From the IMG/VR virus record IMGVR_UViG_3300001460_000074, positions 1 to 36,926 of that record: a stretch of 36,926 nucleotides of DNA. One strand, written 5' to 3'. A model generated the notes under the pieces. The model was not told where the DNA came from, ran no database searches, and saw only the letters and a list, made by a program, of their open reading frames with translations. Position numbers and translations under genes: made by a program. Origin of the DNA: a virus. Shown in pieces: positions 3,027 through 27,670 of the stretch; within the stretch, counting starts at the first letter, position 1, and each line of letters opens with the position of its first letter.

Positions 3027-4263
3027 TATTAGTATTTAAAAAATTTTGTAAGTTTAAAACATTAAAAGATGGATTTTCTTTGTCTGAAATTGTGAAATAT
3101 GGATTTGATTGAACACTTAAATTACATATAGGGTTATTTTCCAGGTATTCATAACAATATTCTGTTAAAAGATGAGGGTATAAATCTCTTAAATCAAACA
3201 AACCATAATTATTTATATAATATTTTGTATTTTTTTCAATGAATTTTATATTTGGTATTTTTTTTAATGCTCTAAGATATAATGTTTCTTTTAGGTTTTC
3301 AAATATATTTGGAAATTTTCTATAAACAATATGTACCTCATTGTAAATTTGGGATAAGTTAAAATAATTGATAAATGAGTCATACATTGATATATGAATA
3401 TTTTTTGGAATAGATGAATTTGTTTTAATTTTTTTTATTAAATTTGAAGGAATTCCTACTTCTTTTCCTTTTTCAGTTAAATGTTTACATAATACAGAAG
3501 GTACCATTAATATTTTTTTATCTTGTAATCTAACCCTTTTACTTATGTACCAATCGGGTCCTTTTTCATTTGAATCTGATTTTCTATCATCTAAAGGAAT
3601 AGTATTTTGTAAGATATTTGCAGGTAATAATACACACCCATTTCCTACAAAACCTACTTCTGTAGTGTTAGCGCTAACAAAATCATCTAAAGTACTACTT
3701 ATCCATTTTCTTTTATTAATACTTGCTACTAATTTTCTTTTGCTTTCATATTCACCTTTAATTGATGTATTCTTATGCCAGTTTTTACAAAAATAAAATC
3801 CTGATGTCATTCCTATATTACTATCTGATTTAAGTTTATAATATAAATCTTTTACAGCATTTATAGGAGGAATAGTATCATCATCTAAAATATGAATATA
3901 ATCATTAACTAAAGATGGTTGTAAAACTTTGGTTAAATTAACAGCAGTAGAACGGTGTTTTCCATAAGGGTTTTCTAAACGAACTTTATCTTCCCAATCT
4001 TCCCAACTATAATCATTATTAATTTTAGCGACTCCTGGTATTAAAGTAAGATTATATTTAGATTCTAAACCATATTCCTTAAATTTACTATCAAATAATG
4101 TTTTAAATTCTTCATTAAAAGATTGTACTATGTATAAATTAAGAGTTGTAATTTCTTTTGGAATTTCTACATTACTAATATAATTAAAAAGTGGGTCTAT
4201 AGTAGCTTTCCTACCTATCATAACAAGAGCTATGCCTAGACTTTTATTACTTTCCAAATTCAT
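3016..4263 (-). CDS. GT2-like glycosyltransferase with C-terminal extension
   Basis: A 415-residue protein. Residues 1-280 look like a GT-A glycosyltransferase. IHILDDDTIPP at 123-133 carries the metal-binding D127-D-D129. GFVGNGCVLLP near 205-215 and PDWYISKRVRLQDKKI near 236-251 match the acceptor and second-half motifs seen in GT2-type enzymes, with a late His (CKHL, about 262). The remaining 130 residues form a Lys/Asn/Tyr-rich helical region (about 290-415) that I do not recognise. It could bind the acceptor or a partner. The gene overlaps the upstream sulfotransferase by 17 bases and the downstream small gene by 11, so the three form one translational unit. Confidence 0.75.
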   Translation of the reverse strand: MNLESNKSLGIALVMIGRKATIDPLFNYISNVEIPKEITTLNLYIVQSFNEEFKTLFDSKFKEYGLESKYNLTLIPGVAKINNDYSWEDWEDKVRLENPYGKHRSTAVNLTKVLQPSLVNDYIHILDDDTIPPINAVKDLYYKLKSDSNIGMTSGFYFCKNWHKNTSIKGEYESKRKLVASINKRKWISSTLDDFVSANTTEVGFVGNGCVLLPANILQNTIPLDDRKSDSNEKGPDWYISKRVRLQDKKILMVPSVLCKHLTEKGKEVGIPSNLIKKIKTNSSIPKNIHISMYDSFINYFNLSQIYNEVHIVYRKFPNIFENLKETLYLRALKKIPNIKFIEKNTKYYINNYGLFDLRDLYPHLLTEYCYEYLENNPICNLSVQSNPYFTISDKENPSFNVLNLQNFLNTNNDK

Positions 4264-4855
4264 AATTAAATCTTTTTATATCTTTTTGGTATTTTTGCCT
4301 AACTAATTCTTCTATTTCACCTGTATAATATTCCCAATATGGTTTGTGGTTTGTTTTATTTCTGTGAGGTAATTTAGTTAATGGAAAACCAATTTTATTA
4401 CATACAAAATTAAAATCTTCTTGTAAGTTTTCAAATTGGCCTATAAAAATATCTTCTTCAATATTTCCATCTTCATCTTCAATCCATTCTAACGCTGGTA
4501 CGTTCCATATATCAAAATTAGAATGGTTGTTTTTTATATAGGTATCAAAATTAGTTGTTGGAGAAACTATACCTCTTTTTTTACCGAAAAAATAATCAGA
4601 TAGTTTTCTGTCCCAAGGATTTCGTATAAAAGTAAATTTAAAATATTGATCCCAATGTCTGTGTAATAAATTTATATACCCTTCTCTTTTACAACGCTTT
4701 AATCTTTCTTTTGTAGGGGTAGTATCATATAAATCAAAAAGTTCTTTTGAAGTTAAGTGATCTTTAATATCCCCAAATAAAGTAGAGCTAATGCTTCTTC
4801 CTGCAGTTTTATTTACATGGATAAAGATGCATTTATACTGTTGAGATATATTCAT
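4247..4855 (-). CDS. Sulfotransferase, chondroitin/dermatan 2- or 4-O type
   Basis: A 202-residue protein of the compact Sulfotransfer_2-like type. The 5'-phosphosulfate loop is FIHVNKTAGRSI at residues 11-22, with K16 in the P-loop-like turn (family: hxPKTAGTS/T). The 3'-phosphate motif is FTFIRNPWDRKLSDYFF at 74-90, with R78 and S86. Both PAPS contacts therefore look intact. It is the first gene of the cassette after the fibre genes and overlaps the next glycosyltransferase by 17 bases. It belongs to a different sulfotransferase branch from the enzyme at 1895-2719, which suggests two different acceptor positions. The leader has AAGG close to the ATG, the nearest thing to a Shine-Dalgarno sequence in the cassette. 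The acceptor is unknown. Confidence 0.82.
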   Translation of the reverse strand: MNISQQYKCIFIHVNKTAGRSISSTLFGDIKDHLTSKELFDLYDTTPTKERLKRCKREGYINLLHRHWDQYFKFTFIRNPWDRKLSDYFFGKKRGIVSPTTNFDTYIKNNHSNFDIWNVPALEWIEDEDGNIEEDIFIGQFENLQEDFNFVCNKIGFPLTKLPHRNKTNHKPYWEYYTGEIEELVRQKYQKDIKRFNYEFGK

Positions 4856-4908: not shown

Positions 4909-5205
4909 TTACCAAGGTGTTCCAGCAATTGATTGGGTTGTTATTAATTTACTTAATGAAGAAGATAATTCAAGTTGAATAGCAGGTATATCAAAACTCC
5001 CTGTAATCCATCCTAATACTATATCTTGGGTTAAATCATCAAATGGGATATAATCAGGTTCAGATGCTGATCCAGTGACTATAATTGTACCCCCTTTACT
5101 TGCTGCTTGACCATTTGAGTAGGTCTCGTATGTATATTCTACATTATACACTAACCCATCAGATGAGTGTCTTGTTAAATTTCCTATGTTCCAAATATAT
5201 TCCAT
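4909..5205 (-). CDS. Small virion-associated protein (hypothetical)
   Basis: A 98-residue protein that begins MEYIWNIGNLTR and continues with alternating beta-strand-like segments (VYNVEYTYETY, KGGTIIVTG). It ends with a helical stretch and a Gly-Thr-Pro-Trp tail. In overall shape it resembles small proteins next to fibre genes in T4-like marine phages (an N-terminal W-N-I/S-x-L, a beta sandwich and a C-terminal GxPW). I recall this family only as uncharacterised, and the match is from memory. It is the last structural-looking gene before the sulfation/glycosylation cassette. A promoter-like element ends only 3 bases before its ATG, which would leave little or no 5' leader. Confidence 0.6.
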   Translation of the reverse strand: MEYIWNIGNLTRHSSDGLVYNVEYTYETYSNGQAASKGGTIIVTGSASEPDYIPFDDLTQDIVLGWITGSFDIPAIQLELSSSLSKLITTQSIAGTPW

Positions 5206-5230: not shown

Positions 5231-5947
5231 TTATGATATAACATCTAAAAATACAGAGAATGACCCTACATTACTCCCATAATGGGCAATTGCTAAATCT
5301 AAAGTATTATTACTTGAAGCAAAAGTAGTTGATGGTCCTCTAAACCAAAATCCATATCCAAACATATTAGCACCAGAAGTTTCAGTATAGGCAAAATATG
5401 GTGTACCGGTTACAGTTTGATCTACAGCTAAACCTGTGTCAGTAGAAGGGGGTTTAGTTGTAAGTCTTCTATTCCACCTACCACTACTAGTTCCAGTTGA
5501 TAAAGTATAAAAAGTAGCAGCGTCATATGCTGTTTTAGTAGCAGCAGTATTTGTTTGAGTAGTTTGCCAATTAGTCGTACTTGATGCAAAACTTAGGCTA
5601 GAATCCCCAAAATAAATATTTGCTCCTATTTGAAAATCACCTTGGTATGAAGTACCACTTGTTCCATTTGTATAATGAATTGCTAATCTACAAGTTTTTC
5701 CGTTATATATGCTACTAAAATCTTCTTGAACTATGTCCCAAGCTGTACTAGAATTTAAATTTTGTGTATATATAGCACTAGATAAACCCAAAGGAACATT
5801 TGAATATCCATAAAAATCAGATACAGCATCGGGGGCTGCAAATCCTGCAGTATCACTAAAGGTACCTAAAGATTGATCAGCGGATGATGCCCCTAATTCA
5901 ACCCTAATATCGTTTAAACTTAATTGTCCTGAACTTGGTAAAGCCAT
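5231..5947 (-). CDS. Fibre- or tail-tip-associated structural protein
   Basis: A 238-residue protein. The N-terminal 50 residues (MALPSSGQLSLNDIRVELG, then an Ala/Ser-rich stretch ending DFYGYSN) resemble the opening of many phage tail and fibre proteins. The rest is rich in Thr, Ser, Gly and aromatic residues with alternating hydrophobics, fitting an all-beta jelly-roll or lectin-like tip domain (for example GTPYFAYTETSGANMFGYGF near 182-201). No catalytic motif is visible. Its ATG overlaps the fibre stop by one base (TAATG), so it is made with the big collagen-like fibre and may cap or assist it. A role in receptor contact is inference. Confidence 0.6.
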   Translation of the reverse strand: MALPSSGQLSLNDIRVELGASSADQSLGTFSDTAGFAAPDAVSDFYGYSNVPLGLSSAIYTQNLNSSTAWDIVQEDFSSIYNGKTCRLAIHYTNGTSGTSYQGDFQIGANIYFGDSSLSFASSTTNWQTTQTNTAATKTAYDAATFYTLSTGTSSGRWNRRLTTKPPSTDTGLAVDQTVTGTPYFAYTETSGANMFGYGFWFRGPSTTFASSNNTLDLAIAHYGSNVGSFSVFLDVIS

Positions 5948-8900
5948 TATACTTTAGATTTAAGTTCGTCGATTTGTTTTTGTTGTTCTTTAATTGCTTC
6001 AATTAATAAAGGAACAATTTTTTCATAGTTAACGGCTTTATATCCATTATCCCTTGTGGTAACAGCTTCTGGTAGTATACTTTCGATTTCTTGAGCTATT
6101 ACACCTACATCTTTACCTATATTACCATGTATAGTTCTTATTTCTTCTTTAGTTAATTCTTTCCAATTAAATGTGTTACCTGTTACTCCAACTACTTTAC
6201 ATAAAGCATTTTCAATTGGTTGTATGTTTTCTTTTAATCTTCTATCCGAAGTAGCAAAGGCAATAATATCATTAGTTGCACTAATCTTTCCTATTGTTGA
6301 ACTCATTGTAGTAGTACCACCAACTTGTAAAGAACATGCTACTGTAGCATTGTTCATGTAAGTTGTTTTTGATGTAGTTGTGGCTAAATTGCAACCTATA
6401 ACCATTGAATGGTCATGTGAAACAGTGTTATTATATCCACCTAATATAGCACCACAATCACCAGTACTATTAATGTTGTTGCTTCTTCCACCTGCTATAG
6501 TGCCCATTGTTGCACTAACTAAATTACCACATCCTCCTCCTATAATACTACTACAACAGGTAGCATTGGTTATCATATTGCCAAAACCCCCTGCTATGGT
6601 TGCATTACGTTGTCCTGTTTGGTTGTTATATCCACCACCTATAGTTGAATGGTTGTTTGTTGATGTACCTGTACTATATATTTGGTTAAAATAACCACCG
6701 CCTATAATACTATATCTTTCACATATTTTATTAAATCTACCTCCACCTATAGTTGAAAAACAACTATTAACTGTTCCAGAATTAGTGCAAATTTTATTAC
6801 AACATCCTCCACTTATAGTAGAATGTTTTGACATATTACAATTACACTCACCCCCAGCAATTACATTAAATAAACTTTCAAAATATATACAGTTCTTACT
6901 ACCACCTCCAATAAAAGAACCATAATCGTTATGACTTGTATATGATAGGATTTTATTTTCGGAACCACCAGCAATTGTAGAATTTGCTATACTACCTGAC
7001 ATAAGATGATTTTGACCTGCTCCAATAAAATTACACCCATGTTTTGTACAAATTTTATTTTGGTCACCACCTACGATAGCATGATAATCTTCTCCAGCAG
7101 GGGATAAAATACAATTTTTTGTTCCACCTCCTACAAAACCTCCCAATACATGAGATTCATTACAACATCCACCTACTATAGTTTGATGGCATTTTGCATT
7201 AGTTACTAAATTACAATATCCTCCACCAATAAAACTATCACTGTTGTATAAGCCGAGGGGTCCTACTGATTCAACTTTGTTTGATGTTCCTCCTCCTATA
7301 AATACATTACAGTTAGAACTTTCAATACAATTCGATATACCACCACCTATTGAAGAATAATTAGCACATGGACTAATTCCACTATTATGACCACCTAATA
7401 TACTAGAATTTGAAGCATTTCCACTATGGCTAGATCCTATTCTAATTTGTTTAAAGCCTTCACTATATTGAACATAAGATGCACCACATATAGTTGAAGT
7501 ACCTGTAGCAAATAACATATAACTATTAACATTATTGCTTATAGTTGCTGATCCTCCTGAACCTTTAGAACCAGTTTGCCCTTTTTGACCCTTAGGTCCT
7601 GCTACTGCTGAATCACCTCCTGTTTGGCCTTTCTGTCCTTTTGGTCCTGCTGTTGATGAGGCAACACCTTTTTGTCCTTTTGGTCCTACTACTGTTGAGT
7701 CAGCTCCTGTTGTACCTTTTTGACCCTTAGGTCCTGTTGGTCCCACTACAGTTGAGTCAGCTCCTGTTTGACCTTTTTGTCCTTTCTGTCCTTTTGGTCC
7801 TACTACAGTTGAGTCAGCTCCTGTTTGTCCTTTTTGACCCTTAGGTCCTGTTGGTCCTACTACAGTTGAATCGGCACCTGTTTGTCCTTTTTGTCCTTTT
7901 TGTCCTTTAGGTCCTGTTGGTCCTACTACTGTCGAATCAGCACCTGTTTGACCTTTTTGACCCTTAGGTCCTGTTGGTCCTACTTCTGATGATGCAACAC
8001 CTTTTTGTCCTTTAGGACCTAGTTGACCTTTCTGTCCTTTAGGTCCCGTTACTGTTGAGTCAGCTCCGGTTTGACCTTTCTGTCCTTTAGGTCCGGTTGG
8101 TCCTACTTCTGTTGAGGCAACACCTTTTTGTCCTTTAGGTCCAATTGCTCCTTTCTGTCCTTTAGGTCCGTCTACTGTTGAATCGGCACCCGTTTGTCCT
8201 TTTTGACCCTTAGGTCCTGTTGGACCTACTTCTGTTGAGGCAACACCTTTTTGTCCTTTTGGTCCTGTTTGACCTTTCTGTCCTTTTGGTCCATCTACTG
8301 TTGAATCAGCTCCGGTTTGGCCCTTCTGTCCTTTTGGTCCTGTTGGTCCTACTTCTGATGAAGCAACACCTTTTTGTCCTTTAGGTCCAGTTTGTCCTTT
8401 TTGCCCTTTTGGTCCATCTACTGTTGAATCAGCTCCTGTTTGTCCTTTTTGTCCTTTAGGTCCTGTTGGTCCTTCTACTGACGAATCAGCACCAGTTTGT
8501 CCTTTTTGACCCTTAGGTCCTACTTCTGTTGAAGCAACACCTTTTTGTCCTTTAGGTCCTGTTGGTCCTACTACAGTTGAGTCTGCACCAGTTTGACCTT
8601 TTTGTCCTTTAGGTCCTACTACTGTTGAGTCAGCACCAGTTTGTCCTTTTACACCTTTAGAACCAACTGAGCCTTTAGGTCCAGTTGCTCCCGTTTGTCC
8701 TTTTTGTCCTTTAGTTCCTGTTTGTCCTTTTTGACCTTTAGAACCCGTTTGTCCTTTTTGACCCTTAGGTCCTACTACTGTTGAATCAGCTCCGGTTTGG
8801 CCTTTCTGTCCTTTAGGACCTTCTACTGTTGAATCGGCACCCGTTTGTCCCTTCTGTCCTTTTTGACCTTTATCACCTACTAAAGCAAAAGAAACAATAA

Positions 8901-10869
8901 TATCCTCTAAATTAGTAAAAGCACTTCCATCATTAGCTTCTTCACTAACACCTAATGTCCAATAATTCCCAGAATCGGTTGCTGTTGATATTGCAAATAA
9001 AATAAAATCTCCTGGATTAAATTTATCTGCTATTCTCATGTGTCCTAAAACTGCACCAGTTCCACTTCGTATTGATTGAAGGAAATCTCCTATATCTGAC
9101 CCACCACCATCAAATTGGCTAATGTAAGATACTGTAGCAGAGGTTTGTGTAGAATTATTTAATCTTATACACCCTGTTGAGGCTCCCGCTGTAGTTGAAG
9201 TTTCAAAGAAATAATCAAATGTTGCTCCCCCAAAATTTCCATCTTGTCCTTCTTGGCCTTTTTGACCTTTAGAACCAGTTTGTCCTTTAGGTCCTACTAC
9301 TGTTGAGTCTGCACCAGTTTGTCCTTTCTGTCCTTTTGGACCCTCTACAGTTGAATCAGCTCCTGTTTGACCTTTTACACCTTTAGTACCAACTGAGCCT
9401 TTAGGTCCAGTTGCGCCCGTTTGTCCTTTTTGACCTTTAGTTCCTGTTTGTCCTTTTTGACCTTTAGTTCCACCAATTCCTTTTTGACCTTTTTCACCTT
9501 TTGGTCCCACTACAGTTGAGTCAGCTCCTGTTTGACCTTTTTGTCCTTTAGGTCCTGTTACTGTTGAGTCAGCACCTGTTTGTCCTTTTTGACCCTTAGG
9601 TCCTGTTGGTCCTACTACAGTTGAGTCAGCTCCTGTTTGTCCTTTTTGTCCTTTTGGTCCTGTTGGACCTACTACCGTTGAATCGGCACCTGTTTGTCCT
9701 TTTTGACCCTTAGGTCCTGTTGGTCCTACTACTGTCGAATCAGCACCAGTTTGACCTTTTATACCTTTAGGACCTATTTCACCTTTTACACCTTTAGGTC
9801 CTACTACAGTTGAATCGGCACCCGTTTGTCCTTTTTGTCCTTTTGGTCCTGTTGGACCTTCTACTGTCGAATCAGCACCTGTTTGTCCTTTTTGTCCTTT
9901 AGGTCCTGTTGGTCCTACTTCTGTTGAAGCAACACCTTTTACACCTTTTGGTCCTATTTCACCTTTTTGTCCTTTAGGTCCTACTACAGTTGAATCGGCA
10001 CCCGTTTGTCCTTTTTGTCCTTTTGGACCCTCTACTGTCGAATCGGCGCCCGTTTGTCCTTTTACACCTTTAGTTCCATTAATTCCTTTTTCACCTTTTG
10101 GACCTACTACAGTTGAGTCTGCACCCGTTTGTCCTTTTTGACCCTTAGGTCCTGTTGGTCCTTCTACAGATGAATCAGCTCCGGTTTGACCCTTCTGTCC
10201 CTTTGGTCCTGTTGGACCTTCTACAGTTGAGTCTGCACCTATTTGTCCTTTTTGTCCTTTTGGTCCTATTTCACCTTTTACACCTTTTGGACCTACTACT
10301 GTTGAATCAGCTCCTGTTTGTCCTTTTTGTCCTTTAGGACCTTCTACTGTTGAGTCTGCACCAGTTTGTCCTTTTGGTCCTGTTAAACCCGTTTGTCCTT
10401 TCTGTCCTTTTGGTCCTGCTACTGTTGAATCTTCTCCTGTTTGACCTTTTTGTCCTTTAGGTCCTGTTGGACCTTCTACTGCTGAAGGTGCTCCTTTTAT
10501 TCCTTTAGGTCCTGTTGGTCCTGCTACTGTTGAGTCAGCTCCGGTTTGACCTTTTTCACCCTTGGGGCCTATTTCACCTTTTTGACCTTTTGAACCAGTT
10601 TGACCTTTTTGTCCTTTAGGTCCAGTTGGACCTTCTACTGTTGAATCAGCTCCGGTTTGACCCTTTATACCTTTAGGACCTATTTCACCTTTTACACCTT
10701 TTTGTCCTTTTTGGCCTTGTAAATCTAAATCTGAACGGGTTTTTATGTTTCCACTACCATCTGTTACTAATATGGTAGTTTCGCTAGTTCCTGTTGGGGA
10801 ATCTGTAAGTTTTAGTGTACTTAATTCAGCATCAGAACCGCTGATTATTAATTTTTTCCAATTTGGCAT
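5947..10869 (-). CDS. Giant collagen-like tail fibre with beta-roll and S74 chaperone
   Basis: A 1640-residue modular fibre. Residues 1-51 form an N-terminal anchor (MPNWKKLIISGSDAEL) shared with the 573-residue protein. Residues 52-544 and 665-1106 are collagen-like Gly-x-y stalks dominated by GPKGQKGQT. Residues 545-664 form a globular beta domain between them. Residues 1107-1540 hold about 20 [IVF]-x-G-G-x-x-N repeats typical of a trimeric YadA-type beta-roll, with about 25 cysteines. Residues 1541-1640 are an intramolecular chaperone of the endosialidase (peptidase S74) type, with SDRRLK at 1541-1546 and a final coiled coil (EAIKEQQKQIDELKSKV). Such proteins trimerise, and the chaperone then cuts itself off at the serine. 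This is the most likely receptor-binding fibre of the phage. No enzyme motif for glycan cleavage is seen. Confidence 0.9.
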   Translation of the reverse strand: MPNWKKLIISGSDAELSTLKLTDSPTGTSETTILVTDGSGNIKTRSDLDLQGQKGQKGVKGEIGPKGIKGQTGADSTVEGPTGPKGQKGQTGSKGQKGEIGPKGEKGQTGADSTVAGPTGPKGIKGAPSAVEGPTGPKGQKGQTGEDSTVAGPKGQKGQTGLTGPKGQTGADSTVEGPKGQKGQTGADSTVVGPKGVKGEIGPKGQKGQIGADSTVEGPTGPKGQKGQTGADSSVEGPTGPKGQKGQTGADSTVVGPKGEKGINGTKGVKGQTGADSTVEGPKGQKGQTGADSTVVGPKGQKGEIGPKGVKGVASTEVGPTGPKGQKGQTGADSTVEGPTGPKGQKGQTGADSTVVGPKGVKGEIGPKGIKGQTGADSTVVGPTGPKGQKGQTGADSTVVGPTGPKGQKGQTGADSTVVGPTGPKGQKGQTGADSTVTGPKGQKGQTGADSTVVGPKGEKGQKGIGGTKGQKGQTGTKGQKGQTGATGPKGSVGTKGVKGQTGADSTVEGPKGQKGQTGADSTVVGPKGQTGSKGQKGQEGQDGNFGGATFDYFFETSTTAGASTGCIRLNNSTQTSATVSYISQFDGGGSDIGDFLQSIRSGTGAVLGHMRIADKFNPGDFILFAISTATDSGNYWTLGVSEEANDGSAFTNLEDIIVSFALVGDKGQKGQKGQTGADSTVEGPKGQKGQTGADSTVVGPKGQKGQTGSKGQKGQTGTKGQKGQTGATGPKGSVGSKGVKGQTGADSTVVGPKGQKGQTGADSTVVGPTGPKGQKGVASTEVGPKGQKGQTGADSSVEGPTGPKGQKGQTGADSTVDGPKGQKGQTGPKGQKGVASSEVGPTGPKGQKGQTGADSTVDGPKGQKGQTGPKGQKGVASTEVGPTGPKGQKGQTGADSTVDGPKGQKGAIGPKGQKGVASTEVGPTGPKGQKGQTGADSTVTGPKGQKGQLGPKGQKGVASSEVGPTGPKGQKGQTGADSTVVGPTGPKGQKGQKGQTGADSTVVGPTGPKGQKGQTGADSTVVGPKGQKGQKGQTGADSTVVGPTGPKGQKGTTGADSTVVGPKGQKGVASSTAGPKGQKGQTGGDSAVAGPKGQKGQTGSKGSGGSATISNNVNSYMLFATGTSTICGASYVQYSEGFKQIRIGSSHSGNASNSSILGGHNSGISPCANYSSIGGGISNCIESSNCNVFIGGGTSNKVESVGPLGLYNSDSFIGGGYCNLVTNAKCHQTIVGGCCNESHVLGGFVGGGTKNCILSPAGEDYHAIVGGDQNKICTKHGCNFIGAGQNHLMSGSIANSTIAGGSENKILSYTSHNDYGSFIGGGSKNCIYFESLFNVIAGGECNCNMSKHSTISGGCCNKICTNSGTVNSCFSTIGGGRFNKICERYSIIGGGYFNQIYSTGTSTNNHSTIGGGYNNQTGQRNATIAGGFGNMITNATCCSSIIGGGCGNLVSATMGTIAGGRSNNINSTGDCGAILGGYNNTVSHDHSMVIGCNLATTTSKTTYMNNATVACSLQVGGTTTMSSTIGKISATNDIIAFATSDRRLKENIQPIENALCKVVGVTGNTFNWKELTKEEIRTIHGNIGKDVGVIAQEIESILPEAVTTRDNGYKAVNYEKIVPLLIEAIKEQQKQIDELKSKV
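5950..6249 (-). other. Peptidase S74 intramolecular chaperone domain of the fibre
   Basis: Residues 1541-1640 of the fibre. The SDRRLKENI start supplies the Ser/Lys pair five residues apart (S1541, K1546) that performs self-cleavage in endosialidase chaperones. GVIAQEIESILPEAV and YEKIVPLLIEAIKEQ are the other family hallmarks. Cleavage would leave a mature fibre of 1540 residues per chain and release about 100 residues. Confidence 0.85.
6250..7551 (-). repeat. Cysteine-rich GGxxN beta-roll repeat region
   Basis: About 20 imperfect peptide repeats of the form [IVF]-x-G-G-x-x-N-x-[IVL], such as SIGGGISNCI, FIGGGSKNCI and TIGGGRFNKI, spaced about 14-25 residues apart. This pattern is known from the left-handed beta-rolls of trimeric autotransporter heads and some phage fibres. 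About 25 cysteines cluster here, often in the same slots (GGCCN, NCI, NKIC). Confidence 0.75.
7552..8877 (-). repeat. Collagen-like repeat block 2 of the large fibre
   Basis: About 442 residues of Gly-x-y triplets (fibre residues 665-1106), mostly GPK-GQK-GQT. They are broken regularly by 7-residue units with Ser at position four, such as GADSTVV and GVASTEV. The DNA is a tandem array of 16- to 36-codon units with mixed synonymous codons. Confidence 0.9.
9238..10716 (-). repeat. Collagen-like repeat block 1 of the large fibre
   Basis: About 493 residues of Gly-x-y triplets (fibre residues 52-544) with the same GPK-GQK-GQT composition and about 20 interruptions, mostly GADSTVV or GADSTVE. Near the end there is an interruption-poor segment of GxKGQKGQTG units. 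It is separated from block 2 by a 120-residue globular domain. Confidence 0.9.
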
Positions 10870-11216: not shown

Positions 11217-12938
11217 TTATGAGTAAATATAAATATCCTCATTGGCTCCTACAAATATATTTCCTTTTTTAACATATCTAGTAACAGCTTCTGATGGTAC
11301 ATTACCAGCACCTTCAAGCACTTGTGCCATGAATGCGTCTGGGATGAATGAGTTTTGAGAAGCATCAAATGATCCAGATACACCCCAACGAAGTTTAACA
11401 GCATCAAATCCAAATACTTCACCATCCGTTGGTCCCGTTTGTTGAACAACAATACCACCATCTCCTGCTGAGTTAGAACCAGAAGCTAATCTGATAAATC
11501 TATCTTTAACATCTAAATCTTCTGTATTTTGGAACGAAGCTGTTCCTTGTACTGTTAAATTTCTTGTTATTACTACATCTCTACCAAAAGTAGAATCTCT
11601 AGTAACTGTTAAATCATTTCCAACTGTTAAATCATTTGTAATTGTTACATCATCAGGTAATCCAATTTGTAGTTTAACATCAGTACCTGCTTTAGTAACT
11701 GCTGTTTCTATTTCAGCAGAAGTACCTATGATTTGTAAATCATCTAATAATAAATTTACATCTTGTGAAGCTCCACCATCACTATCTATTGTTAAAGTTG
11801 AAGCTAATCCAGATAATCCTGAACCATCACCTACAAATGAACCACTAAATGATCCTGTAAAGCTATGACCAGCTAATGTACCTAAAGAAGCAGCAATTTT
11901 ATCTGTTGTTACAGCATCATCTGCAAGTTGAAGAGTATCAATCCCACCATCTTTAACTTGTACTACACCAGTTCCAGCTGCAACTTCAATTGTAGAATCA
12001 TCTACATTAATAGCAAGTTCTTCTGATGAAACGATAATACCAGCCCCATCAATTGTACTAATGTCGAAACCAACACCATTTGCACTAACTGAAACTGGTT
12101 TAGTATTACCACCTGTAGTTGAATCTGCTTGAACAGCAAATTCTCTAGCGATATTACCATCGTAAGCAGTTCCTGATAAACCGTCTCCAGCTGTTAAATC
12201 TTTTAAATTGATATCTACATCTCCTGTAAATGAACCACTAAATGATCCTGTAAATTGATTTGAACCAATTGTACCTAATGAGGTTGCAATTTGTGTTGTA
12301 CCAATTCCACCATCTGTTACTTTAATACCACTAGATCCTACAGTAATTGTAGAACCATCTGGTTGTACTGCTTGTACCCCACTTGTAGCTGTAATACCAT
12401 TTCCTGATATTCCTGCTACTAAATCTACAATTGAATCTTTTTTAGTAAGGTTAGAATCATTAGCATCTATAAATGCAAAACTATCTGCAGCAACATCAAT
12501 TGCTGTGTCTACTAGTTCTGTTAAATTAATAGATAATGGATCACCTGCACCACCTGCAATACCTGAACCAGCAACTGAAGATGCTAATTGAGTTTCTGTA
12601 ATCCCAGCGTCTGCTACTCCTACAGTTACACCTGAAGCTGCTCCATTATAACTAAAAGCAGTTATACTAGTTCCCTGAGTTAAAGCATTTGAAGCCTGAG
12701 CTACTACACCTGTTAATCCTGAACCATCTCCTTGAAAAGATCCACTAAAAGATCCTGAGTGGCTTAAACCAGTAGCTGCTGTTGTTGCTACTATATTTCC
12801 GGTACCATTAATTGCTGTTGTTGTTAGATTACTTGCACCCCCACCAATTACTACTTGGGAAGATGTTAAAGAATCAACTTGTAAATTAGCTAAATTTGCT
12901 GATGATCCGGAAACTATTACTTTTTTCCATTTTGCCAT
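11217..12938 (-). CDS. Fibre/tail structural protein with repeated GSFSGSF modules
   Basis: A 573-residue protein, poor in Cys and Trp and rich in Gly, Thr, Ser, Val and Asp. It opens with MAKWKKVIVSGSSANLANLQ, clearly related to the first 22 residues of the large collagen fibre, which suggests a shared docking tag. Three modules of the type GSFSGSFxGDGSGLxG recur near residues 60, 235 and 365, each followed by a beta-rich segment. DLTVxxDLTVTRDSTF near 445-465 looks like a beta-helical or shaft repeat. The C-terminal 100 residues (ASFQNTEDLDVKDRFIRLASG) resemble the end domains of T4-like marine phage fibres. It is probably a trimeric shaft or adaptor linking fibres to the baseplate. No enzyme motif is seen. 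Confidence 0.7.
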   Translation of the reverse strand: MAKWKKVIVSGSSANLANLQVDSLTSSQVVIGGGASNLTTTAINGTGNIVATTAATGLSHSGSFSGSFQGDGSGLTGVVAQASNALTQGTSITAFSYNGAASGVTVGVADAGITETQLASSVAGSGIAGGAGDPLSINLTELVDTAIDVAADSFAFIDANDSNLTKKDSIVDLVAGISGNGITATSGVQAVQPDGSTITVGSSGIKVTDGGIGTTQIATSLGTIGSNQFTGSFSGSFTGDVDINLKDLTAGDGLSGTAYDGNIAREFAVQADSTTGGNTKPVSVSANGVGFDISTIDGAGIIVSSEELAINVDDSTIEVAAGTGVVQVKDGGIDTLQLADDAVTTDKIAASLGTLAGHSFTGSFSGSFVGDGSGLSGLASTLTIDSDGGASQDVNLLLDDLQIIGTSAEIETAVTKAGTDVKLQIGLPDDVTITNDLTVGNDLTVTRDSTFGRDVVITRNLTVQGTASFQNTEDLDVKDRFIRLASGSNSAGDGGIVVQQTGPTDGEVFGFDAVKLRWGVSGSFDASQNSFIPDAFMAQVLEGAGNVPSEAVTRYVKKGNIFVGANEDIYIYS

Positions 12939-18574: not shown

Positions 18575-21500
18575 TTAATTATTTATTATTCCTTTACTAA
18601 TTAAATCATTTATTATTATAGATGCACTATTTTCTATTCTATTTGATGGAAACTCTGGGAACATAATCCCTGCGGCACTAAATTCTGCTGGTACATTATC
18701 TTGTACAAGTACTGATTTTTGTCCTATATCTAAAGCTGTTAATTGTATTCTACCATTACCACCACCAATACCATCTATACTTAATAATTCATTAATTGTA
18801 TATCCATTCCCTGCACGGGTTATTTCAATATACGTAATATTTCCTGTTGCACCACTCCCACTTACTATTATAGTTGCCTGTGCACCCGAACCATTTCCTC
18901 CTATTGATGTTAAAGTAACATTTGTATATGAACCTGTAGGGGCAGCAGAAGGTTGTTGTTGAATTGATCCTAATAAAGCATCTTTGGTTCTAAGTAGTTT
19001 ACCAGTACGTTCTTGTGATTCAACATATGAAGCAGATATAGTTGCTAAATCATATGGGTATTCTAAATCTAAAATTACACTATTAGCACTTGCTACGTTT
19101 CTTCTTAATAAAAAGAAATCTTTATTAAGTGAAGATGATTGAGGTAATGAAGCATCTAATTCTAATTTAATACGTCCTATATCATCACCCATTATATTTT
19201 CTTGTGGAGCCCAAACTTTTACAATTTGATATGAATAGTTTTCATTATTACTAAATCTAATTTCATCTTGTTCCTGGATATTAAAATTTGCATAAGTAGG
19301 TCCTATTTTAGTTGAATTAGGTTCCATATTACCTGGGAAACCTTCATAAGGACCAGGGATATAAGGTAATTCTCCTTGTTTCCATGTATCACCAAATGCT
19401 TCATTTATTAAATTTGAAGTCATATATATATACCTGGATGAAGTATCTGTAGTTGGAATTGCTGCTGATGGTAAGTCGTTTGCAAATACCCAAAATGGAG
19501 CTGAAGCTGTATTTTCTGTTGCTAATAAATGAGATTTAGACCCTATCATTGTAAATTTAGTTGCATATTTAGGTCCTGGGAATGTTGCTGGGTTAATGGT
19601 ATTAGTACCATCATTACCAGGCATCATATTTCCTGTAATTTTCCATCTTAAATAACTATCTTTTTGGTATGTATTTTCTCCGGAATTTGCAACAAAAACC
19701 CATTCTAACCCCGTAATTCCATCTCTACCAAGCCCTCTTTGGTCTAATACTGCATAAAGTGCATCTTCATTAACATGCATATTAAGTTGGTTGTTTCTAT
19801 CTAAACCAATCCCTGATGATTGTTTACGATTTCTTGAACTAGTTGATTTCTTATTCCATCGTCCAGTTCCTCTAGTATTAGAAGATTGTGATTTAATAAA
19901 AACCACTTTATCTACTACTGAACCTGCGTCAAATGGGGTTGCGCCTTTCCATACTCTTAATTGCACATCAGTAGCTATAAAAGGTATATTTTTACTATTA
20001 TAACCAGTTCCAGCACTATTTAAATAATAATATTCTAAAGACAAGGCAGTTTTAAATTCTGTATATTCCTTTCTTTTTGTTTTTCTTTTCCAGTTTCCTT
20101 TTCTAAAATAATCCGCAGATGAGATATAGGTTGTTGGAAGTGAAAATTGTAAGTCTAAATATTGCATTTGTGAAGTGTCTTGACCCGCTGCAACATAACT
20201 TTCGCTCATAAATGTAACAGCTCCTTCTGGGATAGTATTGCCATTTGGTGCTTGTTCTCCACCAATATATGATCGTGATGCGTATGAACTTGTTTGATAA
20301 TTTGCTGAAGGGTTTAAGTATAAACTTATATTTCTACCACTATCATTAGTTCCAGAGGATGTTCCTTCTACAAGGAATGAATAATCAGTAAAACCAGTTC
20401 CTGGGTTATCATATAAACTAAGGCGTCCAGATCCTGAGAATGCTATTTGGTTAGAGTATCCTCTACTACTTGTTTGGGAATATAAAATAGGTACAGGGTA
20501 AGAACCAACTGTTAATATTGAATGTTCTTGATTTATTTCTTCTAAGACTTGTTCTGCAGCTTCTATATCTATTGATAATCTAGTTGTTTTAGCTATAGGA
20601 AATATTTTTTCTACAATATCCGCAGCTACCCCCTGTAATGAAGGTGGTAAAGCATTTCCTTGATCATCTATTAAGTATGATAAATTCATTCTAGTAACAT
20701 CATTTCTTAAAGGATAAGGGTCTTTAAATGAACTAAAATACCCAAAATATGCATTTCTTAATTCTATTACGGGTAATTGACCGTATGTTCCAAAATCACT
20801 TGGGGACCATACATTTAAAAATTCAGATTGAGCTTTAGATCCCTGATATCTTATATCTGTCCAAGTATGTTGAGTATAATTAGAATCGGGAACTGTAGCT
20901 CTTTGAGCACTACCTGATATTATTTGTTGAAGATTTACAGGTTTAAATACACCAAAAGAATTATTGTAGTCAACATCCATTAAATATGTATTCTGTCTTT
21001 GAAGATTAAAATTATTAATTAAGGGTTGACAATCTAATGCTAAAGCAAAAGGTAAAACATTTCCTGCATAAAAATTAGGAACAATTAATTCTGTTAAAAT
21101 TGGAACTGAATATATACCATATCCAGGGTTTAATACCGCTGTTGAACCTCCATAAACTTCTGAGGTTCCATATAAAGCATAACCATATTCTGTAGGATCA
21201 TCTACTATACTAGCAAATTTTGATTCTGATGGGAATATACTCATTGTATATTCTGTTATATCTAGGTATGACCCAACATTTTTACTTGCACCTATTGCTA
21301 TTCTAAAAGTATCATTATATTTAAAATTAGATACAAATGAACCACTAAGTTCTATATTTTGAATTGATTCACTATTAGGTACAATAAAATCTCTTGTCAT
21401 TATAGGATTTCCTATATTACTCTTGTTATCAGCATTTCCTTTATATATATGTAAAGAACCAGTAAATCTATACCCACTTTCTCCTGATGCTATAGAATTT

Positions 21501-24500
21501 GTTATTTGTAATGAAGGATTAGCAGTATTAAAAGCAGGTAATAAATAAGTAGTAGGAACGGCTTGTGTAACTCCACCAGGTGATACTGCTGCTTCATTTG
21601 GGTACCTACAACCTGAAATGAAAGTTTCTATAAAATACATACTACCCGTTGTATTAATAGTAGGATATAAAACATTAGTTTTGTTTAAGTTAACACCAAT
21701 ACTTCCTCCACCAGATGTTTGAGTTGGTATTGTTCCCCCACTCCTAACACTAACAACCATTTTTTGTTCGGATGTTAAAGTTTTTGTAAAAATTGTATTA
21801 GTACCAGCATCTGTATATTCAAAAGTAGCGGTATCTACACCCGATCCTGTAATACCATATCTAAGTTCGGTATATTGATTTGTTCTTTTAGGAACAATTA
21901 TTGGGCTATCAGGAAATGTTACTGTTGATCCAGGGCTAATATCTACATCATTAAGAAATAGTGAAGATGTTATTAATTGTCTAGGAGTATGATTAGATCC
22001 TGTTATCCATAATCTTTGTTGGACATTCCCATGTATTGCTAATGAGTTTTTAACCCCACCATATTCTAATTTACTAACATTATTAGCAGCACCTTGGGTT
22101 GCAGTAGTTAATGCAAAAGTAATATTTTGAAATGTTGAAGTACCTGAATAAGAAGTACCATCTTCTTCAGTAACACCTGCATTACCTTGCGCAGTATAAT
22201 CTGCATTTGTATTAGCTTCTTCGTCTACACCAATTTGTTCAGAAAACCCAATTCTACTAGAATAATTTGTAATCCAATAATTAAATACTTGGTCAAATCC
22301 TCTAAATACCATCATTATTTTCAAATCTTTCCCATCCCCAGATAAATTAGCTGGGTTTGTAATTATATCACCAAGTGAGAAGTCTACAGTCTGTTTAAAT
22401 ACATTCTGTGTGCCCGCTGATGTGTTAAAATTACTAAGAGTACCATTGATTCTTCTACTAACAACTTGCCCAGCATTTTGAGTAATTGGATCCCCATGAT
22501 CTACTATCTGATATGCTAGTAATACCTGATTATTTTGACCATTAGCAAAAATGTTGGGGTTATCAGGAGGAGGGAAACCAGGAATATGTGCATCTGAGCC
22601 AACTTGGTAATTAAAAAAAACAGATACAGTAGAAAGTACCGCACTAGAAGCTTGGTCTTGTATATCAGTTAATAAATCTTTAATTGGTATAGTTATTACT
22701 CCTACTCCGTTTTCTATATCAAATGTTGTATAACTTGTAGATGTTGTTGGTTGGAAATTTGAGTTAGACCAACCTGTAGGGGTATCATCAGTATTGCCTT
22801 GTTGTGCAAAAACATCAAAAAGACTAGGTTCAGGAATAGGAATTGATCCTCCTATATTAAATTCATCAAAGTTAAAATTAAATGATGCGGTACCTGCTTG
22901 GAATATTCTAGAATGACCCGATGCATCACTAATAGTATTAGGGATTGCGGTTATAGGATCATTTTCCGCAAAGCCGGCACCAAATAATTCTGCCTGCCCC
23001 GCTGCAAATTCTTTAATTACCCAGGCACCACCACTACCAATAAAATATGGTAATCCATTACTAGGATTAACTGTAGTAGCATTTGATACTGTAATACGGT
23101 TATTATCTGTATTAGGGTTAAAAACTGTAATGCTATTTGCATTATTAAAAGGAACCCAATCTACAGCACCAACTGCAGTATCAGTTAATGATATGTATAT
23201 TTGGGTGGCATCGCTAATATTAACATTATTAAAGGCTACGTTGCCAATGAAAGCAGAACCATTAGTATCAAAATTAGTATCTGTTGTAAATATATATGGT
23301 ATTCTAAAAGGATGGAGTTCATCTCCAAATGCCGCATTTGAAATATTATTATTAAAGAATGATGGGTCTAAACCTATTGAGGTAGGGGGAAGTATTATAC
23401 TTGCAGTATTTTGAAACCCAGGTTGAAGGGGGTAGTTTGATTTACTTAATTCCGATGTTTGACTACTACCTGAATGGTATATTCCTTTTGTTAAAATAGG
23501 AGTAGATATTAAACCACCTCCAGATGCACTATATGCTATAGAAGCTGATATTACCCATGGAACATTTGATGTTCTTGGTATTGTATAAACCCCCCAATCA
23601 TATGCTACTTCATTATTACCTAAACTAGTTGTTAAATAGTCTATTGAACCTGTATCAAAGAACCCTAAAGCATCTTGATATACATCATTATAAAATCTTA
23701 TAGTCTGTAATTGCTGGTTAGATTGAGCATGGAAATAGTTTTGAGAATTTACATTAAATCCAGGAAGGTTAGGATTATTAGATGATGATACATTTCCTGA
23801 AACCTTTAAACTCCAATTTTCTGTACCCCCATTAGAAGATGAAACAAATAGATAATCTCCTTTAGTAGTATCTACATTTAATAGTGCTGAGTTAGAATTA
23901 ATAATAGTACCTTCTATAAAATACTTTTTAAATCCTTCAGGGAATATAAATTGTATAAATTCTACTCCAATTAAATAATCTCTAACTTCATTCCCATCAT
24001 AATCTTTTTCAGCTAATTTAATTTTAACTACTTCATCTTGTCCTGTATTTGGGTTTCTATCTACAAACAACCAAGCATAACCAGGTAAAGGTTCATTTCT
24101 ATTATCTTGCCAAAATTCTAGGGTTGTTGTACCAAAAAAGAAATCATCTTGAGAATCAGAAAAAAATAGGGGATAATATCTAACTGGGTCATCTGGTATT
24201 TTATGGTAAGGTATACATCCAGGACTTATAGATTGGGTAACTACTGTTATATTAGATCCACTAAATTCACCGTTGTAAAACTCATCTTGATTCCATATAA
24301 GTTCTACGGATTGTCCTAGTTTTCCTTCTTTTTGTTCTAAAAAACTTTGAGTTAAACCAAATCTATTAGTTAAACCATAAGCCGAAGCTGATGGAGAGGT
24401 TTGTAAACCATTAAAGGCTTCTAATGATCCTCCAGTACCACCACTAAATCTATATATAGATGAACCTCCATAAAACTCGTATGCTCCTGTATCACCTGAT

Positions 24501-27500
24501 CCAGTGCTATAATCTCTTACTTGTGGTTTTAAAGTACCTGAATATGTTGCATTTAAACTAGATACTTGTGGAGGGCGTTGTCTATTTCTTTCTAGTAAAT
24601 GTTGTTTTACTACTACCCCAGATGATAAAGTTGATCTAGCCGGAGTATAGTCTTTAATCATCTTAAATAAAGAATTATCAAAGAATTTTATTAACCTTAC
24701 AAAGTCTACTAGGTCATAGCTCGCCATATATTTTTGAAAATACGCGTCTCTTAACGTATCTAAATCAGGGTAACTGCGACCCGATTGAGATATATGCCTA
24801 GGATCTCCTATGTATTCACCTATGTTAAAATACCCCATTTGGGAATTAATATCATCATTAATTTGATTTTGAGGTGAAAATGCTATTTCTAAATAATCTA
24901 TATCAGGAGTATAACTAGAGCTTAAAAATGAAGTTTGTTGTATTGACCTAATTGGTGATAAAGTATTACCTTCTGGTAGTATTGCCTCGTTTATAGTTAT
25001 TTTATCTGTTATTCTATTTTTTATACCACCTATTACTTGATCTTGATGTATTAATTCTCTATTGACTGAGAAATTAGAAGAACTAATATAAAAATCACTG
25101 CCCAAAGAAAATGAAGAAGTCATAAAAGTAGATGACCCTGTTATTTTTGGGTGGACTGATATTGTGCTACCCGTATTTAATAAAGTACCTAAATCTGCTC
25201 TAAAAAATAGCTCATTAGGAGCGGAGTTAATAGTATTTCCTTCAAAAGAGTAAGGATTCATAGTATAATCATAAAACACATCGTTTTTAATTTTACTATT
25301 ATAGTATCTTATTTCTTGATAAGACCCTGAAAATAATTCATAATTTTTTGTTCCAATACCATAATTACTGACTGCGGGGAATACTATTTCAGGAGCACTA
25401 AAATAATAAGAACTATCAAACCCTGTTGAGACTGAAGATCCACTAAATCCTAGTTTTTTATTAATTTGATTAGCTGCAGTTAAAGAAGCTGTATTTGATG
25501 CTTCTACTGTTGTTTGAACAGACCACCAATTTCCATCAAAAAATGGAAAATATAAACTTGAACTAATAGTAGCATTATTAAAATCGGGTATAAATTTTAA
25601 AGTACCATATTTGTTATAAGGAGAGGGTATTGAACCAGAATATGAACCACTAATTAACCCCGATCCTGTATATTCTAATAATACTGCTGATTTTTTGTTT
25701 AGGTGAAAAAGAGATTGAGAAAAATTTGTAGGAATACCATCGGTTTTAAATCTAAATTGTATTGTAGTTGGATTTGAACCCCCAAAATTTGTGTTAGAAC
25801 CAAGTGATGAACTTACAATATATTTTCCATCAGTATCAAACTTGTAATTAAATACCCTTTGTTGTAGATCCCAATCTTGTGAGTTTACTCGATCTTTACC
25901 TCCAAACTCATTTACTCTTAGAATAGTATCTGGTATACCATATATAGAAAGTATTGCTTCTAACCCAGCTATTGTACCTTTTGTTTTAAAAAGATAAGGT
26001 AAGTTATGGTAAAGACGTTTATATAAACGCTTATTAACCCCATCTAATGATATTGGGTCATTCGAACTAGATATTTCAGTATTTACGTACTCAAACCCAG
26101 AAGGTGTTGGTAAACTATTAGTCATTTCCGGAAATGGGAAATAACTTCCTGAGGGTGTGATTCCTAGTAAAGAAGTAAATATATTATTATTGTTAAAATT
26201 ATTAGAATATAATTTAACACCAAAATCTTTAAGTGCTGCTTCTACTAAATCTTTAGAAATACCATAATCTAAACGATTATCAGTTGAAAATTTATTAGTT
26301 ATATCTTTTGTGTGAACCCATACATCATCATAATATTGACCCGCCATATCTACAAATAATTTATATGGATCATTTGCGGGATCATCTCTTAAGTATTCAG
26401 GAATTGTGTTGAATAATCTATTACTATTATTTTCATCATATTCTGATGCCGAAAGAGCTTGTCCCCCATAATAGGCATTTCCAGTGTTTGTACTCCCTAA
26501 CCACGTAAGAACTTCTGTACTTCCTGTAGGGTATAAAATATAAGGTAAAGTTGATGTTTGTTTAGGCCATGTATCTTTTGACCCACTATTATAGTAAAGG
26601 AAGTAGTCATAACCATCAAAATTAGTTATAAGATCCTTAATATCTCTTTCATATACAGCTTTACTTGAACTATAGGCCGCTGTTTTAGTAGTATCACTTT
26701 GAATTTGACTTGAAAGTGCTTTGATTTGATTAGTGAAATATTCTATTCTTCCCGCTTTATAAGCAAAATTTTCTAAACGTGTTTGAGCTGAGCTAAATTG
26801 TACATATTCACTATATTTTTCATAATTAACATTAATTTGAATATCATTTTCATTTAATATACTTTGTATTTGATTAAATGAACTTGTTGAATTTGTATTT
26901 AGTAAAGTATTATAAGTTTCAAATTGACCTGATGCCCCTACTTGGTTTGTAATATCTAAGTTAAGATTTGGACCTTGTATGAAATTTTGAAATGTTTGTT
27001 CTTCTATTGTAAATGGAAAAGTTACTTTAAAAGCTAAAGAATCAGATAATTTTTCTACTACCCATAATTCATCCTTTACATCAAAGTTAGAAGGAAGGGG
27101 TTCATATAATTTAATTAATATTAAGGGATCATTTAATGTAGTTGTATCTAACTTAATATTATTAGCTATAACTTGTTCATTACTTCCAAAATTTAAAAGA
27201 AAATCAACAAAATAATCTGAATTTTTTCTATAGTTTTCAAAATTATTTGTAGAAGATATTATATCTTCATTTGCAATAACATTACTATCTAATTTTAATT
27301 CTGTTCTATCTCCAGATATTTCTTTTATAAAATACTTATTTTGAATATCCGAGTTTAGTTTTTTTCTATAAAAATTATAATTAATAATCCATGCACCTTC
27401 ATTAAATCCTAAATAATCTAAATCATCAGATGGATTTACATATACATCACCCTTTAAAATTGAAAAATTATCTAATGGAATTGGATTATCATCAGGGTAA

Positions 27501-27670
27501 ACTAAATTTTCATTAGAATCATATATATAGTATTCTATATAATCACCAGAACTAGACCAATTAGTATCTAATTCAGAATTTAAAATTAGATTATTATCTG
27601 CAGAAGAATAATTTTGAATTTCAAAACTATTGGGTTCTAAATTTTGTATTAAAATATCGTTTTCTTCCAT
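18575..27670 (-). CDS. Giant 3031-residue tail/baseplate protein
   Basis: One uninterrupted 3031-residue frame. Residues about 545-592 (KRLYKRLYHNLPYLFKTKG, then GLEAILSIYGIP) resemble the segment of gpI-like and wedge-type baseplate proteins where a K-G-T turn precedes a helix. Residues about 603-790 look like a concanavalin/LamG-type lectin sandwich, ending with LFSGSYQEIRYYNSKI. Residues about 973-1027 (LVDFVRLIKFFDNSLFKMIK, then TPARSTLSSGVVVKQHLLERN) recur in large tail proteins of Bacteroidota phages, as I recall. About 1800 mostly beta residues follow. Residues about 2907-2983 carry the Gly-rich GSGATGNITYIEITRAGNGY strand module common in phage tails. It lies where T4 has gp7/gp8, downstream of gp6, so a wedge that also carries peripheral domains is the likeliest reading. 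Exact homology is uncertain. Confidence 0.7.
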   Translation of the reverse strand: MEENDILIQNLEPNSFEIQNYSSADNNLILNSELDTNWSSSGDYIEYYIYDSNENLVYPDDNPIPLDNFSILKGDVYVNPSDDLDYLGFNEGAWIINYNFYRKKLNSDIQNKYFIKEISGDRTELKLDSNVIANEDIISSTNNFENYRKNSDYFVDFLLNFGSNEQVIANNIKLDTTTLNDPLILIKLYEPLPSNFDVKDELWVVEKLSDSLAFKVTFPFTIEEQTFQNFIQGPNLNLDITNQVGASGQFETYNTLLNTNSTSSFNQIQSILNENDIQINVNYEKYSEYVQFSSAQTRLENFAYKAGRIEYFTNQIKALSSQIQSDTTKTAAYSSSKAVYERDIKDLITNFDGYDYFLYYNSGSKDTWPKQTSTLPYILYPTGSTEVLTWLGSTNTGNAYYGGQALSASEYDENNSNRLFNTIPEYLRDDPANDPYKLFVDMAGQYYDDVWVHTKDITNKFSTDNRLDYGISKDLVEAALKDFGVKLYSNNFNNNNIFTSLLGITPSGSYFPFPEMTNSLPTPSGFEYVNTEISSSNDPISLDGVNKRLYKRLYHNLPYLFKTKGTIAGLEAILSIYGIPDTILRVNEFGGKDRVNSQDWDLQQRVFNYKFDTDGKYIVSSSLGSNTNFGGSNPTTIQFRFKTDGIPTNFSQSLFHLNKKSAVLLEYTGSGLISGSYSGSIPSPYNKYGTLKFIPDFNNATISSSLYFPFFDGNWWSVQTTVEASNTASLTAANQINKKLGFSGSSVSTGFDSSYYFSAPEIVFPAVSNYGIGTKNYELFSGSYQEIRYYNSKIKNDVFYDYTMNPYSFEGNTINSAPNELFFRADLGTLLNTGSTISVHPKITGSSTFMTSSFSLGSDFYISSSNFSVNRELIHQDQVIGGIKNRITDKITINEAILPEGNTLSPIRSIQQTSFLSSSYTPDIDYLEIAFSPQNQINDDINSQMGYFNIGEYIGDPRHISQSGRSYPDLDTLRDAYFQKYMASYDLVDFVRLIKFFDNSLFKMIKDYTPARSTLSSGVVVKQHLLERNRQRPPQVSSLNATYSGTLKPQVRDYSTGSGDTGAYEFYGGSSIYRFSGGTGGSLEAFNGLQTSPSASAYGLTNRFGLTQSFLEQKEGKLGQSVELIWNQDEFYNGEFSGSNITVVTQSISPGCIPYHKIPDDPVRYYPLFFSDSQDDFFFGTTTLEFWQDNRNEPLPGYAWLFVDRNPNTGQDEVVKIKLAEKDYDGNEVRDYLIGVEFIQFIFPEGFKKYFIEGTIINSNSALLNVDTTKGDYLFVSSSNGGTENWSLKVSGNVSSSNNPNLPGFNVNSQNYFHAQSNQQLQTIRFYNDVYQDALGFFDTGSIDYLTTSLGNNEVAYDWGVYTIPRTSNVPWVISASIAYSASGGGLISTPILTKGIYHSGSSQTSELSKSNYPLQPGFQNTASIILPPTSIGLDPSFFNNNISNAAFGDELHPFRIPYIFTTDTNFDTNGSAFIGNVAFNNVNISDATQIYISLTDTAVGAVDWVPFNNANSITVFNPNTDNNRITVSNATTVNPSNGLPYFIGSGGAWVIKEFAAGQAELFGAGFAENDPITAIPNTISDASGHSRIFQAGTASFNFNFDEFNIGGSIPIPEPSLFDVFAQQGNTDDTPTGWSNSNFQPTTSTSYTTFDIENGVGVITIPIKDLLTDIQDQASSAVLSTVSVFFNYQVGSDAHIPGFPPPDNPNIFANGQNNQVLLAYQIVDHGDPITQNAGQVVSRRINGTLSNFNTSAGTQNVFKQTVDFSLGDIITNPANLSGDGKDLKIMMVFRGFDQVFNYWITNYSSRIGFSEQIGVDEEANTNADYTAQGNAGVTEEDGTSYSGTSTFQNITFALTTATQGAANNVSKLEYGGVKNSLAIHGNVQQRLWITGSNHTPRQLITSSLFLNDVDISPGSTVTFPDSPIIVPKRTNQYTELRYGITGSGVDTATFEYTDAGTNTIFTKTLTSEQKMVVSVRSGGTIPTQTSGGGSIGVNLNKTNVLYPTINTTGSMYFIETFISGCRYPNEAAVSPGGVTQAVPTTYLLPAFNTANPSLQITNSIASGESGYRFTGSLHIYKGNADNKSNIGNPIMTRDFIVPNSESIQNIELSGSFVSNFKYNDTFRIAIGASKNVGSYLDITEYTMSIFPSESKFASIVDDPTEYGYALYGTSEVYGGSTAVLNPGYGIYSVPILTELIVPNFYAGNVLPFALALDCQPLINNFNLQRQNTYLMDVDYNNSFGVFKPVNLQQIISGSAQRATVPDSNYTQHTWTDIRYQGSKAQSEFLNVWSPSDFGTYGQLPVIELRNAYFGYFSSFKDPYPLRNDVTRMNLSYLIDDQGNALPPSLQGVAADIVEKIFPIAKTTRLSIDIEAAEQVLEEINQEHSILTVGSYPVPILYSQTSSRGYSNQIAFSGSGRLSLYDNPGTGFTDYSFLVEGTSSGTNDSGRNISLYLNPSANYQTSSYASRSYIGGEQAPNGNTIPEGAVTFMSESYVAAGQDTSQMQYLDLQFSLPTTYISSADYFRKGNWKRKTKRKEYTEFKTALSLEYYYLNSAGTGYNSKNIPFIATDVQLRVWKGATPFDAGSVVDKVVFIKSQSSNTRGTGRWNKKSTSSRNRKQSSGIGLDRNNQLNMHVNEDALYAVLDQRGLGRDGITGLEWVFVANSGENTYQKDSYLRWKITGNMMPGNDGTNTINPATFPGPKYATKFTMIGSKSHLLATENTASAPFWVFANDLPSAAIPTTDTSSRYIYMTSNLINEAFGDTWKQGELPYIPGPYEGFPGNMEPNSTKIGPTYANFNIQEQDEIRFSNNENYSYQIVKVWAPQENIMGDDIGRIKLELDASLPQSSSLNKDFFLLRRNVASANSVILDLEYPYDLATISASYVESQERTGKLLRTKDALLGSIQQQPSAAPTGSYTNVTLTSIGGNGSGAQATIIVSGSGATGNITYIEITRAGNGYTINELLSIDGIGGGNGRIQLTALDIGQKSVLVQDNVPAEFSAAGIMFPEFPSNRIENSASIIINDLISKGIINN

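Follow-up and report, generated by a model that had tools for sequence, protein, structure and literature searches.

Results and Discussion

A cysteine-studded beta-roll in a phage fibre

We consider it moderately probable that the virus studied here builds a trimeric fibre in which a left-handed parallel beta-roll (LPBR) of the UspA1 type forms the shaft or adhesin section, and that the outward cysteines of this roll are individually kept for contact or reactivity and form no disulfide ladder. The window, which is the whole stretch of DNA analysed (36,926 nucleotides), represents a complete 36.9 kb virus record and encodes baseplate wedge homologues. The fibre protein and its parts are as follows.

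5947..10869, minus strand: fibre protein of 1640 aa (ORF; PF01391 collagen and PF13884 Peptidase_S74; PHROG tail fibre matches)
10726..10869, minus strand: N-terminal module, starting MPNWKKLIISGSDAELSTLKL (translation)
7552..10725, minus strand: collagen G-X-Y, five stretches (PF01391, E=4.9e-67; translation)
6403..7401, minus strand: UspA1-type beta-roll array, aa 1157-1489, 333 residues, 19 layers, 22 Cys (phmmer to 3pr7, E=1.7e-15; register analysis)
6250..7551, minus strand: interval of the initial annotation, exactly aa 1107-1540, 434 residues, 25 Cys (translation)
5950..6249, minus strand: Peptidase_S74 intramolecular chaperone and C-terminal helix (PF13884, E=1.1e-14, Pfam match aa 1541-1604)

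Some 110 residues of non-collagen sequence, at about aa 552-661, interrupt the collagen region. The S74 domain opens with SDRRLKENI, and a Ser-Lys dyad, which we take to lie in SDRRLK by its spacing relative to endosialidase, accompanies the C-terminal PF13884 match. The protein thus resembles endosialidase-type fibres with an S74 chaperone tail, with autocleavage predicted from the sequence. Its C-terminus is Peptidase_S74 and no C-terminal YadA anchor beta-barrel is present in the fibre, which sets it apart from trimeric autotransporter adhesins. Together, the collagen stalk and the S74 chaperone point to a fibre that is trimeric and made in the cytoplasm. By eye, the N-terminus MPNWKKLIISGSDAELSTLKL resembles the N-terminus MAKWKKVIVSGSSANLANLQV of the adjoining ORF 11217-12938. 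The two virion proteins share a similar start, WKK.I.SGS.A.L..L (10726-10869 and 12860-12938), which is possibly a common anchor to the virion.

Relation to the UspA1 head and other known rolls

A phmmer search of the array against the PDB identified the Moraxella UspA1 head (3pr7, E=1.7e-15), with the best alignments over the YSTIGGGxxNxA repeats. A relative matched UspA1 at 4.2e-22 and additionally 3ntn, while the reversed array used as a control gave no PDB match. No PHROG or Pfam family reached the cut-off for the array alone. The homology and the 15-residue layers with the core pattern I-x-G-G-x-x-N-x-A place the array among the rolls of this type. The trimeric beta-roll proposed in the initial annotation is thus supported by the UspA1 homology, the empty reversed control and the collagen and S74 context, its trimeric state being probable.

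UspA1 is an LPBR in which most layers span 15 residues and include an extra glycine (PMC9543794). Its head (3pr7, 3ntn), a trimeric roll, shares the YSTIGGGxxNxA repeat and the mostly 15-residue period with the phage fibre. However, it has no cysteine in the aligned stretches, lacks collagen and S74, and takes the type V secretion route. LPBR heads of the YadA/BpaC type follow the same layer logic, and their positions map one to one except for the extra glycine, but their layers comprise 14 residues as opposed to 15 in the viral roll (PMC9543794). We number the layer I1 x2 G3 G4 x5 x6 N7 x8 A9 x10 G11 x12 Y13 S14 T15; the transfer of positions from PMC9543794 to this numbering is our own mapping. 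Accordingly mapped, positions 1, 7, 9 and 14 point inside the chain, 15 and 2 into the trimer core, 3 is the invariant glycine, and 5, 6, 8 and 10-13 face outward (PMC9543794).

Two AlphaFold (AF2) monomer models are beta-solenoids with pLDDT values of 68 and 83, the higher value belonging to the shorter model. Both fit right-handed structures with an rmsd of about 3 Å, compared to 8-9 Å for left-handed ones, and UspA1 is not among their structure matches. The monomer models therefore appear to have the handedness opposite to UspA1, which we put down to predicting an obligate trimer from a single chain. Because of this better match to right-handed solenoids, the left-handedness proposed for the viral roll is based on sequence homology. 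Further structure matches, at E=2.4e-5 and 2e-3 and 27-30% identity, were obtained to collagen/S74 proteins of Klosneuvirus KNV1, Solivirus and uncultured Caudovirales (BFVD). Unlike the phage of the window, KNV1 and Solivirus are giant viruses. Giant virus proteins with collagen and S74 that match the roll model are found under the BFVD entries A0A1V0SIQ1 and A0A3G5AGZ1; the roll module may thus be shared by giant viruses and phages.

Cysteines are confined to the outward side of the roll

The initial annotation had estimated ~25 cysteines in ~430 residues and about 20 GGxxN repeats. The exact count is 25 in 434 residues (aa 1107-1540), with 17 separate GGxxN motifs and, including degenerate ones, 19 in-register layers spaced 15-23 residues apart. 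The recurring contexts GGCCN (twice), NCI (three times) and NKIC (three times) were found as described, and the other virion proteins are indeed nearly cysteine-free (0-0.6% Cys in the remaining phage structural ORFs). Outside aa 1107-1540, about 1200 residues of the fibre protein itself contain 2 cysteines.

Within the array, cysteines occupy register positions 5 (3), 6 (4), 8 (4) and 10 (3) as well as turn or loop sites. The eight core positions make up 152 of the 333 array sites but hold only 1 of the 22 cysteines (hypergeometric P=1.8e-5). We examined this pattern in three IMG/VR samples. Sample 1 (at least 120 stretches) was recruited with a Cys-containing pattern, which favours cysteine; sample 2 (72 arrays) with a Cys-neutral motif that does not require cysteine; and sample 3 only via the glycosyltransferase (GT)-like neighbour 173-1048, where 36 of 51 loci carry the roll, giving 28 non-redundant arrays. 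In 1252, 984 and 220 regular repeats, respectively, cysteine is found at positions 5, 6, 8 and 10-13. None of the 984 repeats of the Cys-neutral sample has cysteine at positions 1-4, 7, 9, 14 or 15, and sample 1 is similar; of these, the search motif itself sets 1, 3, 4 and 7 wholly or in part, which leaves only 2, 9, 14 and 15 as independent signs of exclusion. Positions 2, 9 and 15, which vary among small residues, lack cysteine in both sample 1 and sample 2; at position 14 it occurs in at most 0.2% of the repeats of these two samples and in two cases in the GT-recruited set. The sequence statistics hence place the cysteines at positions which published rolls put on the solvent side, away from core and trimer axis. 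The Cys-rich roll is real and no artefact, and it represents a known fold in a variant that is widespread among viruses.

Compared with the expectation from codon nucleotides, cysteine is 6-fold enriched at position 8, 1.7-fold at 12, 1.5-fold at 6 and 1.3-fold at 5; positions 10, 11 and 13 show no clear excess. Because of the excess at 8, 12, 6 and 5, composition alone is insufficient as an explanation, and the codon test rules out mutational drift as the only source of the cysteines.

Viral rolls differ from bacterial homologues

Cysteine amounts to 4.3% of residues in the 72 Cys-neutral arrays and to 6.5% in the 28 GT-recruited ones, compared to 0.30% in 27 arrays of Bacteroidota homologues. 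The bacterial sample was drawn with a similar Cys-free motif from genomes of one phylum, that of a Bacteroidetes MAG; since viral and bacterial motifs fix some seed-repeat positions as non-Cys, the two motif-drawn samples can be compared like for like, with both percentages slightly too low. In these samples, cysteine in the viral roll reaches roughly 14-20 times the bacterial level. The earlier statement that such beta-rolls are usually Cys-poor consequently holds for the sampled bacterial homologues but not for the viral ones.

Searches for relatives by the array itself contributed little. Two tblastn searches of a phage collection gave no match, probably due to low-complexity masking, another gave weak matches only, and a related-locus search with the array as query found no relatives. 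Five phage records with related C-termini or weak matches lack the roll, and bases 12000-36000 have no near match among 50,697 phage records. Matches of the Cys pattern in genome contigs were mostly chance.

Secreted adhesins cross the oxidising periplasm, where Cys-rich passengers would be harmful. We propose that bacterial rolls are nearly Cys-free because of this passage and that the phage roll is freed of the constraint: as its S74 chaperone would fold it within the reducing cytoplasm, the fibre would tolerate thiols, unlike secreted bacterial adhesins. Such relaxation might be all there is, the cysteines being tolerated surface residues without a role, as the low content of the secreted homologues and the location at variable positions would allow. 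We consider this unlikely, since the same proteins outside the roll and the neighbouring phage structural proteins are Cys-poor, cysteine exceeds codon composition (most strongly at position 8), and orthologues in the window's group retain it preferentially.

In three orthologous pairs from the window's phage group, 0.75-0.82 of cysteines are kept, compared to 0.58-0.64 of other surface residues. Across 13 orthologous pairs, residue-wise retention of cysteine is 0.72, second to glycine, and several pairs show the opposite. The two tests disagree in degree; the site-wise z-score of the 13-pair test is biased by the definition of Cys sites and was not used. An earlier comparison (0.40 for Cys versus 0.49) was dominated by repeat-confused, out-of-register pairs of 55-65% identity and was therefore replaced. 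Overall, orthologues conserve the cysteines to a moderate degree, with the clearest signal in the window's phage group. Such preferential retention argues for selection on individual cysteines, which is likely for this group and uncertain for viral rolls at large.

No statistical support for cysteine ladders

The initial annotation had predicted vertical or inter-chain cysteine ladders. Tenebrio antifreeze protein is an example of a beta-solenoid with a disulfide ladder, in which cysteines would recur at fixed partner positions of successive coils. Neither 226 viral arrays (3726 repeats, within-array permutation, 217 tests) nor the independent 28 arrays show this arrangement. In the permutation, no pair of positions co-occurs as disulfides would need, and cysteines at the same position in adjacent layers are not enriched overall (6-6: 176 observed, 159 expected). 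Adjacent 13-13 cysteines are depleted (21 versus 40.7), as are 12-13 and 6-8 pairs, and 6-13 does not co-occur at any layer offset (z -1.6 to +1.1). In the independent set of 28 arrays, 13-13 pairs are once more depleted (4 versus 10.9), 5-8 pairs are depleted as well (7 versus 21.5), and layers with one cysteine are in excess (238 versus 212 expected), the number per layer being slightly under-dispersed. Ladders are unlikely because no pair co-occurs as fixed partners would, 13-13 neighbours are depleted and one-Cys layers are in excess.

Three positive signals were seen. The 10-10 excess two layers apart (53 versus 32 in the 226 arrays) may stem from duplication of repeat pairs. We discounted the co-occurrence of 5-6 (CC), which the GGGCCN search produces and which is reversed in the neutral set (12 versus 21), and that of 10-11, an artefact of 14-residue repeats in the layer indexing. 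Odd and even cysteine counts (53:42) were uninformative.

These data bear on the idea that the cysteines staple neighbouring layers or chains by disulfides once the virion reaches oxic water. The local cysteine density is high, and in the BpaC structure positions 13 and 6 (3/14 and 10/14) adjoin each other at the interface between chains (PMC9543794). Furthermore, phage Milano, whose structural proteins are Cys-rich as here (2.1% Cys), has a virion-wide disulfide network (PMC10811340). However, the Milano disulfides are specific, mapped bonds in sheath, tube and baseplate, as opposed to a beta-roll surface (PMC10811340), and the missing co-occurrence, the 13-13 depletion and the unclustered distribution over layers speak against fixed pairing. 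We therefore give stapling a low probability; promiscuous or opportunistic disulfides may form on the roll. An array of metal sites along the fibre would be consistent with the many exposed thiols that the register and pairing analyses suggest for one rod, but these show no clustering or fixed spacing such as a site requires, which makes it highly improbable.

Proposed role of the outward thiols

On its own, release from constraint fails to explain the enrichment, the restriction to the roll and the retention, which favours a use in surface contacts. We thus prefer the reading in which the UspA1-type roll, with layers I-x-G-G-x-x-N-x-A-x-G-x-Y-S-T, would be a rigid shaft or adhesin section and its thiols would be retained singly, each exposed on a receptor-binding surface for contact or reaction; disulfides formed after release, if any, would be opportunistic. 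The outward thiols are probably used in binding, presumably of a receptor. Sulfur-based receptor chemistry is, as far as we found, undescribed for phage fibres. Much more tentatively, and with considerable doubt, environmental viruses might have evolved a distinct Cys-studded UspA1 roll with about one outward thiol per layer and avoided neighbours, which would serve as a reactive-sulfur array for adhesion via mixed disulfides, metal or S-modification.

The roll fold itself is already known. Its Cys-rich viral version spans more than 200 environmental arrays with cysteines nearly all on the outside, and no description of Cys-rich or UspA1-like phage fibres was found in open-licence papers. The contrast to the sampled bacterial rods opens the idea of exposed sulfur chemistry on phage fibres to testing. 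Thiols that stay free would mean that these fibres exploit such chemistry outside the cell; thiols that oxidise would make stapling a further means of hardening a fibre.

Neighbouring genes

The GT-like ORF 173-1048 recurs near beta-roll fibres: of the 51 loci for which it was the only bait, 36 carry the roll. This linkage, together with two sulfotransferases and other GT-like ORFs downstream of the fibre, could suggest that the cysteines are modification sites, for example for S-linked glycosylation by the linked enzyme. We consider this very unlikely: the GT assignment of 173-1048 has no Pfam match, the linkage may be plain synteny inside one phage lineage, and no sequon was found.

The two sulfotransferases (1895-2719 and 4247-4855; PF13469, E=8e-10, and PF03567, E=2e-10) could act on the fibre or on a glycan of the host. 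Directly after the fibre genes, 4909-5205 encodes a DUF7936 protein (PF25590, E=6e-14), relatives of which are located near six other roll loci. Rfam gave no match in the window. The structural region contains an ORF of 3031 aa (18575-27670) with only 3 cysteines.
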